Part shown: positions 38,353 through 45,344 of the stretch, one piece after another | How positions within the stretch are numbered: the stretch's first letter is position 1 | Layout: the number at the start of each line of letters is the position of its first letter | Origin: a virus | IMG/VR virus record: IMGVR_UViG_3300006749_000017 | Span: 1 to 51,371 of that record | Length of the DNA: 51,371 bases | Direction: 5' to 3' (one strand) | Position numbers and translations under genes: made by a program | Notes under the pieces: generated by a model | Databases searched by the model: none | The model's input: only the letters and a program-made list of their open reading frames with translations | Told to the model about the DNA's origin: nothing

Positions 38353-39375
38353 ATGTCTGAACTTTGGGTAACAAACGTATACAACCAAGAAGGAGATGGT
38401 GCTCCTAATCTACCTAAAGGTGCTATTGTCACTGGTGTTGTAACTGCTACAAGTTTTACTGGTAGTGGTGCAAACCTTACGGGGGTGACTGCAACTGATG
38501 TAGGAACTCTGGGAAATCTTAACGTAACTGGAGTTGGAACTTTTGGTGGCAATGTAACGATTGGTGGGACATTAACATATGAAGACGTAACTAATATAGA
38601 CTCTGTTGGATTAATTACAGCAAGAAGTGGTATTAATATAACATCTGGTAGTATTAAAGGATATAATCAATTAGTTGCTCCCTATAGTGGGACAACCACA
38701 ACACTTACAGTTACAGTTGCATCTAAAGTTAATGGAGAGCACAGATATTTTGGAACAGGAAGTGCTTTAGGATATGTTGTAGATGGAACGCAATCACCTT
38801 ATATTACTTTAACACCAGGTAGAACTTACAAGTTTGATCAGGCAGATGGTAGTAATGCAAACCATCCAATAAAATTTTATCTAAATGCAGATAAAACAGG
38901 ACTATATGAGGGTGGTGTAACTTACAACGGAACTGCAGGTAATTCTGGAGCATATACCCAGATAGTTGTTAATGATTATACTCCTACGGTGCTGCACTAC
39001 CAATGCGTCAATCACGGCTATATGGGTAATGCGGTCAATACAAGTTCTAACAGTTCGATGTCTGCAGAGTCATCAACTGTCACAGCAATGGGTGCAAACT
39101 CTGTTGATTGTCGAATAGGAAATTACTTTACAAAGACTATATCAGGAGCAACAACATTTACATTCGATAATGTTCCAGCATCAGGAGTTGCTTTTGGATT
39201 TGTAATGGAATTGACATTGAATGGTTCCAATGCAGTAACATGGCCAGCAAGTGTTAAATGGCCAAAAGACACTGCACCAACAATTACAGATGGTAAGACT
39301 CAAATGTTTGTATTTGTGACAGATAATGGTGGAACACGATGGAGAGGTAGTTCACTTGTAGATTATACTAATTAA
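38353..39375 (+). CDS. Tail-fibre protein with inserted cupredoxin-like domain
   Basis: 340 residues. N-terminal fibre block (ATSFTGSGANLTGV, IGGTLTYEDVTNIDSVGLI). Residues about 110-235 form a cupredoxin-like domain: LTPGRTYKFDQADGSN, NHPIKF with His171, then LHYQCVNHGYMGN with Cys218, His221 and Met224, the four ligands of a type 1 copper site. The C-terminal ~100 (TKTISGATTFTFDNVP to SSLVDYTN) is the shared fibre tip, also in the gene at 42013, which lacks the cupredoxin. It is first of a duplicated fibre + LamG pair. Confidence 0.82.
   Translation: MSELWVTNVYNQEGDGAPNLPKGAIVTGVVTATSFTGSGANLTGVTATDVGTLGNLNVTGVGTFGGNVTIGGTLTYEDVTNIDSVGLITARSGINITSGSIKGYNQLVAPYSGTTTTLTVTVASKVNGEHRYFGTGSALGYVVDGTQSPYITLTPGRTYKFDQADGSNANHPIKFYLNADKTGLYEGGVTYNGTAGNSGAYTQIVVNDYTPTVLHYQCVNHGYMGNAVNTSSNSSMSAESSTVTAMGANSVDCRIGNYFTKTISGATTFTFDNVPASGVAFGFVMELTLNGSNAVTWPASVKWPKDTAPTITDGKTQMFVFVTDNGGTRWRGSSLVDYTN
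38560..38625 (+). repeat. 66-bp fibre module repeat, copy 1
   Basis: DNA encoding IGGTLTYEDVTNIDSVGLI plus TAR. It is nearly identical to 42268-42333, 46338-46403 and 51062-51127, in four different genes. Confidence 0.8.
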
Positions 39376-39380
39376 ATATT

Positions 39381-41981
39381 ATGTCTATAGCAAGAAAATT
39401 ATTAATGTCTTCTGGTGGAAAGAAAGATTCTACATTTGTTGACGACGTATTTTCAACTTATCTTTATAAGGGAACAAACGGTGCGAATACAGTAAATACT
39501 GGTCTTGATATGTCTGGGGAAGGTGGATTGCTTTGGCTTAAGGCTCGTAGCAATAGAAGTCATCAATGGTTTGATACTGAAAGGGGTGTTAATACACGTA
39601 TGCAATCAGACGGTGTAGGAGCATCAGTTGCTGATTCTGGTATGAATCAAACTTTTACTTCGACAGGTTTTACTTTTAATAATACTTACACAGATTTAAA
39701 CGACCATAACGTAAATTATACCTCTTGGAATTTCCGCAAGGCACCTGGATTTTTTGATATTGTTAAGTGGAATGGAGACGGTTCATCATCAAATAGACAA
39801 ATAGCTCATAATTTGGGCAGTATTCCTGGCATGATCATAATGAAAGCTTACACGCATCCAAGTGGCGTTGGAAATACTGATTGGCAAATTTATCATCGAG
39901 GACTAAATGGCGGTGTAAATCCAGAACAATATGCACTCATGTTCTCTACTGGTGCAGAAGGGAATCGGGATTGGTTTGGTGATACTGCCCCTACGGCTAC
40001 ACATTTCACGATAGGAAGTGGACAAGATCGTAACGGTACAGGTGGTCAATATGTAGCCTACGTATTTGCAGGAGGTGAAAGTACTGCTGCAACGGCAAAG
40101 AGTGTAAAATTTGATGGTAATGGTGATGATTTAACTATTAACAACAATACAGATATTCAACTCGGATCAACATCAGCGTGGACTGTTGAATTTTGGTTTA
40201 AAAGGACTGGATCATATCAAGATTATGATGTTATACTTGGTAAAGGTGATGGTACTGGTAGTTATGAATGGTTTGTTGAAGGATTTTCGGATGGATCTGT
40301 AGATTTCTTATGGAGTAGTAGTGGTGGGAATCTTCAGTCTGGTCGGTATGAAATGATTGACTATCAAACAACAGACATCTGGTATCATGTTGCAATTGTT
40401 AGAAATGGTACTAGTTTTAAAGTTTATATAAATGGTACTGAGACTTACTCAACAACAGCATTTAATATTTTTGCTGGAAATGGAAAGTTAAATATTGGTG
40501 GATATGCTGGTGCTAGTGGCCAAGATCCCGCAGTAGTTATAAGTAATTTAAGAATAGTAAAAGGAACAGCACTTTATACATCATCATTTAAACCACCAAC
40601 TGAACCATTAACGAACATAACGAATACTAAACTTTTATGTTGCAATAACTCATCAACTACAGGTTCAACCGTAACTACTGGAACGATTACTGCTAATGGT
40701 AATCCAACAGCAAGCACAGATAGTCCCTTCGATGACCCAGAGGGTTTCAAGTTTGGTGAAGGAGGAGACCAAAATATTATCAAGACTGGTAGTTATGTTG
40801 GATCAGGCTCCGCAGGTTTGGAAGTAAATGTCGGGTTTGAGCCGCAATGGATAATTTTTAAAAACGCTTCTGCTGCTTATAACTGGTATGTTTTGGATGT
40901 TATGAGGGGCATTGTTTCAAATGGTGATGAAGCAATATTAAGTGCTAACACAAATAGTGCAGAGTTTGACAGTAGTTATATTGATGTAACACCTACTGGA
41001 TTTAAGTTACAGACTAATCACGCTTTAGGAAATGGGAGTGGTAATACTTACGTCTACATGGCACTGAGAACACCTGATGGTTATGTAGGAAAACCAGCAG
41101 AGGCAGGTACGGATGTATTCGCTATGGATGTTGGTAGTAATAATTTCCCTGCATTTGATAGTAATTTCCCTGTTGATTTTGTTTTACAGAAAGCTCCAGA
41201 TGCTGCTGCAAATTGGTTAGTACCAAGTCGATTAACAGGATCAGCAAAATATCTTAAAACTAATACTACCGACGCTGAAGCAAGCTGGGATGTGTTTGAT
41301 TTTGATTCAAATGTAGGTTGGGGAAAAGCAAGTACTTGGGCTTCGGCTACGAATAATGCATGGATGTGGAAACGCCACGCTGGTTTTGATGTGGTGACTT
41401 ATAAAGGAACGCAAACGGTTCAGAATATAAGTCATTCAATGAATAAAGCTCCAGAAATGATGTGGATAAAAAATAGAGATAGTGGTGTTTACAACTGGAG
41501 TGTATTTCACTCAGGATTAGGAGATAACCGTTTCAAGCTGTACTTAAATACCACTCAAGATTATACAAATGATCAAGCTGCTTGGAACAATACAGCACCT
41601 ACTTCTACACATTTTACACTAGGAATAGACGCAACAGCTAATAAATCTGGTGACGATTACATAGCCATGCTCTTCGCCAGCGTTGACGGCATCAGTAAGG
41701 TTGGTAGTTATGACGGCACAGGTTCGACTCAAACTATAACAACAGGATTTAGTCCAAGATTTATAATTATAAAAAGGTCTAATTCTTCTGAAAACTGGTT
41801 AGTATTTGATACTACAAGAGGATGGGGATCAGGTAATGATGCATCTCTAAAATTAAATGCTAGTGATGCACAAGGTTCGTTCGATGTAGGTGCGCCTACT
41901 TCAACAGGATTTACACTAGTAAGTAATTACAACACTACAAACGCTTCGGGTGGTAAATACATATATTATGCTCATGCTTAA
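39381..41981 (+). CDS. LamG-lectin tail protein, copy 1
   Basis: 866 residues. The N-terminal VDDVFSTYLYKG and following region hold the first of about four units of the type FDIVKWNGDGS...IAHNLGSIPGMIIMKAY...W.IYHR (DUF7483-like). Residues about 239-430 are a LamG/concanavalin-like lectin domain (SVKFDGNGDDLTI, WTVEFWFKRTG, WYHVAIVRNGTSFKVYING, SNLRIVKGTALYTSSF). It is a paralogue of the gene at 42726 in full length and order. Such lectin domains bind sugars, so this is probably a host-surface-recognition protein. Confidence 0.8.
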   Translation: MSIARKLLMSSGGKKDSTFVDDVFSTYLYKGTNGANTVNTGLDMSGEGGLLWLKARSNRSHQWFDTERGVNTRMQSDGVGASVADSGMNQTFTSTGFTFNNTYTDLNDHNVNYTSWNFRKAPGFFDIVKWNGDGSSSNRQIAHNLGSIPGMIIMKAYTHPSGVGNTDWQIYHRGLNGGVNPEQYALMFSTGAEGNRDWFGDTAPTATHFTIGSGQDRNGTGGQYVAYVFAGGESTAATAKSVKFDGNGDDLTINNNTDIQLGSTSAWTVEFWFKRTGSYQDYDVILGKGDGTGSYEWFVEGFSDGSVDFLWSSSGGNLQSGRYEMIDYQTTDIWYHVAIVRNGTSFKVYINGTETYSTTAFNIFAGNGKLNIGGYAGASGQDPAVVISNLRIVKGTALYTSSFKPPTEPLTNITNTKLLCCNNSSTTGSTVTTGTITANGNPTASTDSPFDDPEGFKFGEGGDQNIIKTGSYVGSGSAGLEVNVGFEPQWIIFKNASAAYNWYVLDVMRGIVSNGDEAILSANTNSAEFDSSYIDVTPTGFKLQTNHALGNGSGNTYVYMALRTPDGYVGKPAEAGTDVFAMDVGSNNFPAFDSNFPVDFVLQKAPDAAANWLVPSRLTGSAKYLKTNTTDAEASWDVFDFDSNVGWGKASTWASATNNAWMWKRHAGFDVVTYKGTQTVQNISHSMNKAPEMMWIKNRDSGVYNWSVFHSGLGDNRFKLYLNTTQDYTNDQAAWNNTAPTSTHFTLGIDATANKSGDDYIAMLFASVDGISKVGSYDGTGSTQTITTGFSPRFIIIKRSNSSENWLVFDTTRGWGSGNDASLKLNASDAQGSFDVGAPTSTGFTLVSNYNTTNASGGKYIYYAHA
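40698..40784 (+). repeat. 87-bp near-identical repeat, copy 1 (LamG genes)
   Basis: Almost identical at DNA level to 44016-44102 in the paralogous gene, encoding GNPTASTDSPFDDPEGFKFG and the start of the next unit. It stands out from diverged flanks. Confidence 0.8.
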
Positions 41982-41985
41982 CCTA

Positions 41986-41992
41986 CTAAATA
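41986..41992 (+). promoter_or_regulatory. Late promoter motif CTAAATA
   Basis: ACTAAATAAATAAAAAG; CTAAATA ends 20 bases before the ATG at 42013. Confidence 0.6.
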
Positions 41993-42012
41993 AATAAAAA
42001 GATTCTAGAATA

Positions 42013-42720
42013 ATGTCAAGAATTAGAGCTGACAAATTAGTTAACAAAAATGCGTCTGGTGGTCCTGATTTTCCTCTAGGTGCTACCGTAACTGGTATTA
42101 TGACTGCCTCTGGTGGTTTTGCTGGTTCTGGTGCTAATCTTACTAATGTTCCAGCAACTAGTTTAACGGGAACTCCGAATATTACTGTAGGAACAGTTGG
42201 TGCAGGAAACGTTACATCTTCGGGAACAGTTAGTGCTGTTACTGGTAGTTTTAGTGGTAATGTAAGTATTGGTGGGACATTAACATATGATGACGTAACA
42301 AACATAGATTCAGTTGGACTTATAACTGCAAGAAAAGGTATAAACGTAACTGCTGGAGTATCGACATTTGCTGCAGCAACTCATCAAAATGCAGGAACAA
42401 AAGTATCTGGTCCTTATTCTGCTAATATAACAGCAATGGGTGCAAATGATGTTGATTGTTCTGCAGGTAATTACTTTACCAAAACAATATCAGGAGCAAC
42501 AACCTTTACATTCTCTAATGTTCCTACTGGTGTGGTTTATGCATTCAGTATGGAAGTAACATTGAATGGATCAAATGCAATCACATGGCCATCAAGTGTT
42601 AAATGGAATGCGGATACAGCACCAGCGTTAACTGATGGTAAGACTCAATTGTTTATGTTTTTAACTGATGATGGTGGAACTCGTTTTAGAGGTTCAGCAC
42701 TTGTAGATTACGTTAATTAA
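42013..42720 (+). CDS. Tail-fibre protein, paralogue without cupredoxin domain
   Basis: 235 residues. It has the same N-terminal block (GSGANLTNV, IGGTLTYDDVTNIDSVGLI) and C-terminal tip (TKTISGATTFTFSNVP to SALVDYVN) as the gene at 38353 but lacks the ~110-residue cupredoxin-like insert. It is followed 5 bases later by a LamG paralogue, repeating the gene pair. Probably a trimeric fibre subunit. Confidence 0.8.
   Translation: MSRIRADKLVNKNASGGPDFPLGATVTGIMTASGGFAGSGANLTNVPATSLTGTPNITVGTVGAGNVTSSGTVSAVTGSFSGNVSIGGTLTYDDVTNIDSVGLITARKGINVTAGVSTFAAATHQNAGTKVSGPYSANITAMGANDVDCSAGNYFTKTISGATTFTFSNVPTGVVYAFSMEVTLNGSNAITWPSSVKWNADTAPALTDGKTQLFMFLTDDGGTRFRGSALVDYVN
42268..42333 (+). repeat. 66-bp fibre module repeat, copy 2
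   Basis: Second copy of the 66-bp block, with a few base changes (GATGACGTAAC in place of GAAGACGTAAC). Confidence 0.8.
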
Positions 42721-42725
42721 AGATC

Positions 42726-45344
42726 ATGGATCCTATTACACAGTTTATGATGCAGGGTGCTGCTGGTGCAGCAGGTGATGCGACTTATGTTGACGATGTT
42801 TTTTCGACGTATCTTTACACAGGACAATCAACTACTAAAACTATTACCAATGGAATTGATAATTTAGGTGAAGGTGGAATGTTATGGGTTAAGAATAGGG
42901 ATAATGCAAGAGGTCATCAATTATATGACACAGAAAGATTAGCAAGTGGTTCAAATACAACTTCAGATTATTCTTTAAGCAGTGACTCTAATGGTGCTGC
43001 AAGGGATATGAGTCCTAATGGGATTGTTACTTGGAAAAACGATGGATGGTCTGTTCCTGGTGGTGATGGTGATATAAACCAAAATGGTTTTGGGGATTAT
43101 GCAAGTTGGAACTTCCGTAAGCAAAAAGGATTCTTTGATGTTGTTACCTACACAGGGAATGGTACGGCTGGTAGGACTGTAAGTCATTCGTTGGGTTGTG
43201 AACCTGGAATGATTATTATAAAGAATTTAGATAGTACTGAAGATTGGCGTGTATATCATCGTTCATTAGGTGGAACACACAATTTAGTATTAAACTCATC
43301 TGCTGCTAGTGCTGCTACTAGTTCAGTATTTAACCAGACTGATCCGACTGCAAGTGTCTTTACTGTAGGGACTTCCGACGCTACTAATAAAAATGGTGAT
43401 AATTTTGTAGCTTATGTTTTTGCAGGAGGTGCTTCAACTGCTGCGAATGCAAGGTCTGTTGAATTTGATGGATCGGGTGATTATTTAACTACAAATACAT
43501 CCAGTGATTACACATTGGGTACAGGTGATTTTACTTTAGAGTATTGGTATAAACCAGACACAGTTAATTATTCCACTTTCTTAGTTGATGCAAATACTGG
43601 AAGTGAAGTTTGGGCTACTTATTGTAATGTTAATGGGCAACATAAATACCGTGTTAATGGTACTGACGAAATAATTAGTACTACTCCATTAAGATATAAT
43701 CAATGGCATCACATCGCTATTGTTAGATCTTCTGGTACAACTAAGATGTATGTCAATGGTACTCAGGAAGGTGCTAGTATGTCTGACAGTACTAATTATA
43801 CCTTTACTTCAGTAGTTATTGGCAGGCGAGTTTCTGCTGGGGATCTTCAGTATGATGGAGAAATATCTAATCTTAGACTTGTAAAAGGAACAGCAGTTTA
43901 TACCTCATCATTTAGACCAACTTACGAACCATTAACGTCTATAAGTGGTACATCTCTTTTATGTTGTAATAATTCTTCCGTAACAGGAACAACAACAGGA
44001 ACAGTTACCTCAAGTGGTAATCCAACAGCAAGCACAGATAGTCCTTTCGATGACCCAGAGGGTTTCAAGTTTGGTGAGGAAGGAGACCAAAATATAATCA
44101 AGTGCGGTAGTCATAGTCATTCATCAACTAATCCAATTCGCATTTATACAGGATTTGAACCCCAATGGATAATGCTTAAGAACGCAACACAATCCAGCAA
44201 CTGGGCAATGTATGATGTTATGCGAGGTATTTTTGTAGGGTCTGATGGTCCTTCTTTAACTGCTGATACTAATACCGCAGAAAATGGAGTTCTAGGTCAA
44301 GGTCAACCCCTTACACCTCATGGAGATGGTTTTACTCTTAATTATGGACTCACTGCTGTAAATCCTGGTAATGGAAACACCGTAATTTATATTGCAATCC
44401 GAAAATCTGATGGTTATGTAGGAAAACCAGCAGAGGCAGGAACTAATGCATTCGCTATGGATACGGGTAATGGTAGTAGTTCTGGACCTTGTTTTGATAG
44501 TACTTTTGCTGTTGATTTTGCACTAAGAAAAATATACGGCAGTACTGATGATTGGTGGGCTGTAAATAGACTTACAGGTAAAAAATACTTAAAGACTAAT
44601 ACAACTAGTGCCGAATCTAATCATAATGATAACCCTATGGATTTTACTGATGGATGGGCTGCAGGATCTATAGGATCTGGAATGCAATCATGGATGTGGA
44701 AACGAGGTGCTGGTTTTGATGCGGTGGCATTCCAAGGGACTGCAACTGATCCTGGTCGAGATTATGCTCATTCATTAGGGAAAACACCAGAATTAAAATT
44801 TATAAAAAGAAGAAATTCCTCTACAGATTGGATGGGTACAGGAACGGTTGTTTCACAAGCAATGGCTGGAAATAATAATTCAATGGATTATTTCGTAAAA
44901 CTTAATTCAACAGATGCAGCAACAAATTCTAGTAATTATTGGACTGGTGGTAATGATAGTTCAACACATTTCACTGTTCGTCATGGTAACAGTGCTTTAG
45001 GTGGTAGTAATGATCCTTATTTGTGTTTACTGTTCGCCAGCGTTGAAGGCATCAGCAAGGTTGGTAGCTATAACGGTACAGGATCTGTTGGTCTTCAAAT
45101 AACGACTGGGTTTTCTCCTAGATTTCTTATATTAAAAAGAGCAAACGCTAGTGGTCCTTGGTATGTTCTGGACACAACAAGAGGATGGGCTGGAGGTAAT
45201 GATCAATATCTACTGTTGAACACTAGTGATGCACAATCTCCTTATGAATTTGGTGTTCCAAATGCCACTGGGTTCCAATTAGATATTACTGCTAGTCAAG
45301 TAAACGAATCAGGTGGAAAATACATATATTATGCTCATGCCTAA
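42726..45344 (+). CDS. LamG-lectin tail protein, copy 2
   Basis: 872 residues, paralogue of the gene at 39381. VDDVFSTYLYTG opens it, then FFDVVTYTGNG with HSLGCEPGMIIIKN, a LamG domain (about 241-425: SVEFDGSGDYLT, FTLEYWYKPD, WHHIAIVRSSGTTKMYVNG, SNLRLVKGTAVYTSSF) and three further DUF7483-like units (GFEPQWIMLK, HSLGKTPELKFIK, GFSPRFLILK). The LamG part is more diverged from copy 1 than the flanks, suggesting selection for different sugars. Confidence 0.8.
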   Translation: MDPITQFMMQGAAGAAGDATYVDDVFSTYLYTGQSTTKTITNGIDNLGEGGMLWVKNRDNARGHQLYDTERLASGSNTTSDYSLSSDSNGAARDMSPNGIVTWKNDGWSVPGGDGDINQNGFGDYASWNFRKQKGFFDVVTYTGNGTAGRTVSHSLGCEPGMIIIKNLDSTEDWRVYHRSLGGTHNLVLNSSAASAATSSVFNQTDPTASVFTVGTSDATNKNGDNFVAYVFAGGASTAANARSVEFDGSGDYLTTNTSSDYTLGTGDFTLEYWYKPDTVNYSTFLVDANTGSEVWATYCNVNGQHKYRVNGTDEIISTTPLRYNQWHHIAIVRSSGTTKMYVNGTQEGASMSDSTNYTFTSVVIGRRVSAGDLQYDGEISNLRLVKGTAVYTSSFRPTYEPLTSISGTSLLCCNNSSVTGTTTGTVTSSGNPTASTDSPFDDPEGFKFGEEGDQNIIKCGSHSHSSTNPIRIYTGFEPQWIMLKNATQSSNWAMYDVMRGIFVGSDGPSLTADTNTAENGVLGQGQPLTPHGDGFTLNYGLTAVNPGNGNTVIYIAIRKSDGYVGKPAEAGTNAFAMDTGNGSSSGPCFDSTFAVDFALRKIYGSTDDWWAVNRLTGKKYLKTNTTSAESNHNDNPMDFTDGWAAGSIGSGMQSWMWKRGAGFDAVAFQGTATDPGRDYAHSLGKTPELKFIKRRNSSTDWMGTGTVVSQAMAGNNNSMDYFVKLNSTDAATNSSNYWTGGNDSSTHFTVRHGNSALGGSNDPYLCLLFASVEGISKVGSYNGTGSVGLQITTGFSPRFLILKRANASGPWYVLDTTRGWAGGNDQYLLLNTSDAQSPYEFGVPNATGFQLDITASQVNESGGKYIYYAHA
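44016..44102 (+). repeat. 87-bp near-identical repeat, copy 2 (LamG genes)
   Basis: Matches 40698-40784 with only a few substitutions; located just after the LamG domain. Confidence 0.8.

Follow-up and report, generated by a model that had tools for sequence, protein, structure and literature searches.

The window, that is, the whole stretch of DNA analysed here, is a linear IMG/VR record of 51,371 bases and represents a fragment of a T4-like phage. Its content points to the tail/baseplate region of a marine phage of this type, with genes for PhoH, a baseplate hub/lysozyme, a tube cap, and large virion proteins, and its nearest DNA relatives are cyanophages and single-cell marine viruses (66-70%). 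An earlier note on this DNA had proposed that a tail fibre encoded here carries an inserted cupredoxin-like domain with a type 1 copper site. The tail-fibre location is borne out by homology of the 340-aa product to PHROG tail fiber families (Table 1) and by the neighbouring genes, which encode baseplate hub, fibre, and LamG proteins and thus place the gene in a tail/baseplate block. The ligand residues were likewise found where they had been read, with His171 in NHPIKF and Cys218, His221, and Met224 in CVNHGYM, whereby C-x2-H-x2-M occurs only once in the six frames of the whole window.

Table 1. Fibre locus of the window: coordinates of genes, protein parts, and predicted ligands
Feature	Position	Strand	Basis
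Tail-fibre protein with predicted cupredoxin domain, 340 aa	38353..39375	+	ORF; PHROG tail fiber families, phrog_30742 2e-60
Fibre N-terminal part, residues 1-104, common to paralogue	38353..38664	+	55% identity to 42013 protein, residues 1-99
Predicted cupredoxin domain, residues 106-232	38668..39048	+	AlphaFold2, Foldseek/VIA, PDB profile search, homologues
His171, predicted N-terminal copper ligand, before strand 4	38863..38865	+	Invariant in alignment A1; strand positions
Cys218, predicted thiolate ligand, end of strand 7	39004..39006	+	Invariant in alignment A1; strand positions
His221, predicted ligand, loop 7-8	39013..39015	+	Invariant in alignment A1; strand positions
Met224, predicted axial ligand, loop 7-8	39022..39024	+	Invariant in alignment A1; strand positions
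Fibre C-terminal domain, residues 240-340, common to paralogue	39070..39372	+	73% identity to 42013 protein; phrog_9017 tail fiber
Partner gene, 866-aa LamG (Laminin_G_3) + DUF7483 protein, putative adhesin	39381..41981	+	Pfam; also 3' of fibre gene in L001
Paralogous 235-aa fibre without cupredoxin domain	42013..42720	+	Comparison of both fibres
Paralogue of the 866-aa LamG/DUF7483 protein, 872 aa, second of the pair	42726..45344	+	ORF; both match the same relatives, 45-48% identity

The region 38353-45344 consists of a fibre plus LamG/DUF7483 cassette in tandem duplicate, with the domain in one fibre and absent from the other. Comparison of the two fibres confirmed that residues ~108-238 are missing from the paralogue, while the flanks on both sides are collinear. 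No second copy of the domain was found elsewhere in the record, which is a phage fragment. In the related stretch L001 (1923-6402) the window is matched at 94-96% identity by the fibre gene and the gene upstream of it, whereas the adjacent LamG/DUF7483 protein shares only 48%; the adhesin beside the constant fibre has apparently been swapped between the two.

Fold and ligand placement of the inserted domain

The domain was aligned with 43 homologues, down to 26% identity (alignment A1, in which the A1 number plus 104 gives the protein residue). The AlphaFold2 model based on these homologues has eight strands and a pLDDT of 90.8. In A1 numbering the ligands are H67, C114, H117, and M120, and the strands next to them are E69-72, E109-114, and E122-125, so that His171 precedes strand 4 by two residues, strand 7 closes with Cys218, and His221 and Met224 are located in the loop before strand 8. 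The domain is thus modelled with the build of those blue copper proteins that act as electron carriers in photosynthesis; a His before strand 4, a Cys at the end of strand 7, and His/Met in loop 7-8 make up the layout of plastocyanin and amicyanin. In the predicted model, the ligand placement along the strands is therefore that of the type 1 copper topology, and the model shows the eight-stranded Greek-key beta barrel and the ligand positions (strand 4, strand 7, and loop 7-8) that define the cupredoxin superfamily.

A Foldseek search of the PDB with the domain model returned rusticyanin as the top match (E 6e-4, TM 0.44), followed mostly by two-domain laccases. The TM-scores were moderate (0.44-0.48), and the top 50 consisted of cupredoxins and laccase domains, with the small acid-peptidase SO1698 as the lone other fold. 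In VIA-align the domain was superimposed on the N-terminal cupredoxin domain of the Hyphomicrobium three-domain CuNiR with Z 8.6 and an rmsd of 3.0 over 101 residues. Since this Z is only just above the level that the tool calls 'common', the relation was tested further. When the A1 profile was compared with 177,635 PDB sequences, nine of the ten matches at E<=10 were copper or multicopper-oxidase-fold proteins (best 0.004), among them copper nitrite reductases, pseudoazurin, and multicopper oxidases. Searches of Pfam, NCBIfam, and, with the single sequence, the PDB yielded nothing useful, and the relation became visible only by family profile and fold search. None of the Pfam copper families passed for the domain; neither PF00127 (plastocyanin/azurin) nor PF25489 (At5g54830-like) reached its gathering threshold or gave any match in the window.

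Further evidence came from a short type of the domain, first met as a second copy in L032. By hhalign it is related to the type found in the window (hereafter 38353-type) with 99.7% probability and E 2e-25, whereby the His and the Cys/His/Met columns align. Its model (pLDDT 92.5) gave 92 PDB fold matches at E<=1e-3, and the 50 listed were all of cupredoxin fold, with CuNiR, rusticyanin, AcoP, amicyanin, plastocyanin, pseudoazurin, and laccases represented; the best structural alignment reached Z 10.9 and an rmsd of 2.2 over 94 residues. In the profile search against the PDB, 22 of the 27 matches were copper proteins, including nitrite reductase, amicyanin, plastocyanin, and auracyanin. PF00127 was touched by 17 of the 67 short-type members, yet below the cut-off (16.7 bits or less vs 21.2 where shown).

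Rusticyanin and the N-terminal cupredoxin domain of three-domain CuNiR (2dv6, 6tfo) are the best fold matches for both types of the domain, but they are respiratory proteins and share only ~14-24% identity with it. Amicyanin and plastocyanin (PF00127) have in common with it the Greek-key fold, the strand placement, and the motif His...Cys-x2-His-x2-Met with amicyanin spacing. They differ in that the 38353-type domain is an internal phage-fibre module with no signal peptide and no PF00127 match, and in that the first ligand, which is surrounded by Pro-His-Asn in amicyanin and plastocyanin, is found in His-Pro here.

Conservation and joint loss of the ligands

The four ligands are invariant in A1, and 253 of 256 unique complete copies retain all of them (HCHM). 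Because the retrieval patterns had included ligand motifs, the count was repeated for copies holding a non-ligand search pattern only, where 187 of 190 keep the complete set. Across 257 unique copies, the ligands occupy four of the five most conserved columns, and they are thus conserved as a set. A profile search of 11 whole phage genomes gave 15 copies with four ligands and 12 with none or one, whereas copies with two or three were not observed (0). In 200,000 independent shuffles of the columns the number of mixed copies never fell below eight, a result that is not to be read as a probability since the copies are related and the ligand alignment in the most divergent ones is uncertain. The all-or-none pattern may reflect a few old events in a subfamily and not many independent losses.

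Two copies illustrate the loss. In L127 the His, Cys, and His are replaced by Asp, Ser, and Asn, with the Met and the rest of the domain kept, and in PSS2 gp080 they are replaced by Asp, Ala, and Thr, again with the Met and the surrounding sequence kept. A scan with the degenerate L127 copy revealed no degenerate relative besides L127 itself; L181 retains the ligands. PSS2 gp080 (L346, 1992-2330) is a stand-alone copy of 112 aa from the Prochlorococcus phage PSS2 and is encoded directly behind the tape-measure gene.

The joint gain or loss of the ligands is what a metal site predicts. It could also be that the domain descends from cupredoxins but now serves adhesion as a metal-free Ig-like or beta-sandwich module, in which the residues are kept for the sake of the fold. 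Site-less copies do persist in PSS2, S-SM1, and S-CREM1, so the fold can serve phages without a metal. However, the ligands are more conserved than the core hydrophobics, and in L127 and PSS2 three of them were lost at once with the remainder still in place, which makes a vestigial fold very improbable. Concerning the kind of metal, the joint conservation and the joint loss would fit any. Cupredoxins made in the bacterial cytoplasm take up Zn, and it is conceivable that the site is a purely structural zinc (or Cu(I)) site, with the fibre folding where zinc is available and the virions leaving the cell with Zn. This seems unlikely to us, as the neighbours by fold and by profile are copper proteins and as the domain strictly keeps the weak axial Met together with the amicyanin spacing C-x2-H-x2-M, both of them a requirement of copper sites but not of zinc sites.

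As judged from substitution rates, the domain is under purifying selection. Against L001, the nearest relative, its dN/dS is 0.06 and the lowest of the three protein parts, a rough value that rests on six differences only, and against L002 it is 0.17, again the lowest of the protein's parts. Between the window and L001 the domain is 99% identical, compared with the 48% of the neighbouring LamG protein. With regard to the type 1 copper site suggested in the earlier note, the cupredoxin fold, the ligand set, its placement along the strands, and the purifying selection are thus supported by model and alignment, whereas the binding of copper itself can only be called likely.

Distribution among marine phages and cellular relatives

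The domain is not confined to one phage but recurs as a module in structural proteins of marine phages. The 38353-type was detected in 208 IMG/VR stretches and in 50 phage records, all of them marine (Synechococcus, Prochlorococcus, Pelagibacter, and Methylophilales phages), an intermediate type in 228 records, and the short type in 319 phage records, where the matches listed are mostly gp9, 'baseplate wedge tail fiber connector'. BFVD matches comprise fibres, gp9, gp7, and a long-tail-fibre proximal subunit. Myoviruses possess the domain, as do podoviruses of Prochlorococcus and Pelagibacter, and P-SSM2 has at least four intact copies. S-SCSM1 gp141, which also has an intact copy, is annotated '(virion protein)', and a virion proteome is reported in PMC9602691; by analogy, the fibre of the window might be present in the virion as well.

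Since cyanophages do carry petE, it was considered whether the domain is a copy of this auxiliary plastocyanin gene and not a virion part. This explanation was rejected: in P-SSM2, Syn9, and S-SCSM1, petE is a separate small gene of the same phages (PF00127, 1e-19 to 1e-20). The domains, in contrast, sit inside fibre and baseplate proteins, and the window is free of PF00127 matches, so that a petE origin appears extremely improbable.

In the genome collection the relatives were mostly phage contigs within single-cell assemblies. Cellular relatives, all of them predicted secreted proteins, were found in Gallionellaceae and in two gammaproteobacterial MAGs (L176, L177, L178, and L179). In both gammaproteobacterial MAGs they adjoin cytochrome c7-type multihaem genes and a beta-barrel-like ORF (L176 and L179), surroundings that possibly constitute an unstudied electron-transfer cluster. 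The relatives from L177 and L179 pass Pfam PF25489, and L177 contains two near-identical relatives in tandem. Altogether, the PF25489-like proteins (L176, L177, and L179) resemble the phage domain in keeping Cys-x2-His-x2-Met, and they pass or approach the family cut-off. They differ from it in being predicted secreted proteins beside multihaem cytochromes, whereas the phage domain of the window gives no match to this family. The nearest described cellular relatives would thus seem to sit in electron-transfer surroundings.

Probable copper occupancy, possible roles, and relation to known systems

The best explanation of these data is that residues ~106-232 form a cupredoxin domain which most likely binds one copper ion via His171, Cys218, His221, and Met224, and that it is a portable module, repeatedly incorporated by marine phages into adhesion proteins such as tail fibres and gp9-type baseplate/fibre connectors. 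We assign this reading as a whole a probability of about three in four. With the four ligands so rarely lost among hundreds of relatives in ocean phages, copper is probably present on the parts by which these virions attach to their hosts. Copper occupancy and the role of the copper (stability, sensing, redox, or receptor bait) are points that we infer. Any of the roles suggested in the earlier note, namely stabilisation of the tip, sensing of the surface, or binding to a host copper/electron-transfer protein, may apply.

The four-ligand site would hold copper, rather than zinc or nothing. Fibres acquire their fold in the cytoplasm of the host, which keeps its free copper very low. Owing to this scarcity, loading would probably take place after lysis, from cell debris or sea water; alternatively, zinc might fill the site first. 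The bound metal would lock that end of the domain at which loop 7-8 and strand 4 lie and give the fibre an exposed knob that is rigid and resists proteases, which is the simplest role that can be suggested. A host-specific receptor role of the domain is argued against by its near constancy next to a variable LamG adhesin.

At the cell surface, the domain may possibly serve in sensing or redox. Electron transfer is the function of type 1 sites, and the nearest cellular relatives adjoin multihaem cytochromes and match PF25489, so it might be that the copper centre, by a change of state or by electron exchange with redox proteins on the surface or in the periplasm of the host, triggers or times injection. 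We judge such a device rather unlikely, because no partner was seen within the 51,371 bases of the window, because the conservation of the domain next to a diverging LamG adhesin (99% vs 48%) speaks against tuning to a variable partner, and because some phages retain site-less copies. The broader idea that fibres and gp9 connectors of many dominant marine phages carry a redox-active type 1 copper, which senses the redox state of the surface or exchanges electrons during adsorption, is a tentative one that we regard as doubtful.

Metals in phage fibres have a precedent in the HxH tail fibres (T4 gp37; alterophage R22Y, PMC11705849), with which the fibre of the window shares, by prediction, a metal borne by a phage fibre. 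In these fibres the iron lies between three chains, whereas here a separate domain with the fold of a copper protein is present, with one predicted site per chain. For iron in tail fibres the 'Ferrojan horse' idea was proposed, and the iron in T4 gp37 and the predicted iron motifs in marine phage fibres (PMC11705849) would lend some support to a copper form of it, in which a copper or metal uptake receptor of the host recognises the fibre-bound copper; that the domain has so far been found in phages of marine hosts would fit as well. However, the type 1 copper of cupredoxins lies buried and is not easily released, and the hosts of the domain-bearing phages (cyanobacteria, Pelagibacter, and Methylophilales) are unrelated. 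To our knowledge, there is also no known receptor for a copper-bearing fibre, and a function as metal bait is hence improbable.

Fibres and gp9 connectors of P-SSM2, P-TIM68, Melnitz, and S-SSM5 possess the same domain and ligands as the fibre of the window, but in their records they are labelled fibre, connector, or hypothetical, with no copper site noted there. The literature search brought up no account of a phage virion that contains a cupredoxin, whereby subscription papers, preprints, and InterPro labels were outside the scope and automatic 'cupredoxin' labels may exist. Cupredoxins as such and iron in fibres (PMC11705849) are known already; for a cupredoxin module that belongs to the standard equipment of phage attachment proteins, no earlier description was met in the papers searched, and it is apparently new. 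If the copper reading is true, cyanophages, pelagiphages, and methylophages would have a new kind of virion cofactor in their attachment apparatus, phage particles would act as a copper ligand in the ocean, and there would be a testable handle on phage attachment. As several of the hundreds of sequenced marine phages with the domain are in culture, phage-host pairs from the laboratory could be used.

Some further arrangements of the domain were recorded. One phage protein (L283, 1435-2142) has two cupredoxin domains in tandem, and L279 likewise begins directly after another HSGMG motif. In L343/L385 (Syn9, S-SM1 1387-aa baseplate wedge protein) each protein combines one site-less with one intact copy. 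Outside of the phages, 'Beta-sandwich proteins' of Pithovirus- and Marseillevirus-like giant viruses (BFVD A0A481Z6J5 and A0A481YY19) match the domain by predicted fold.
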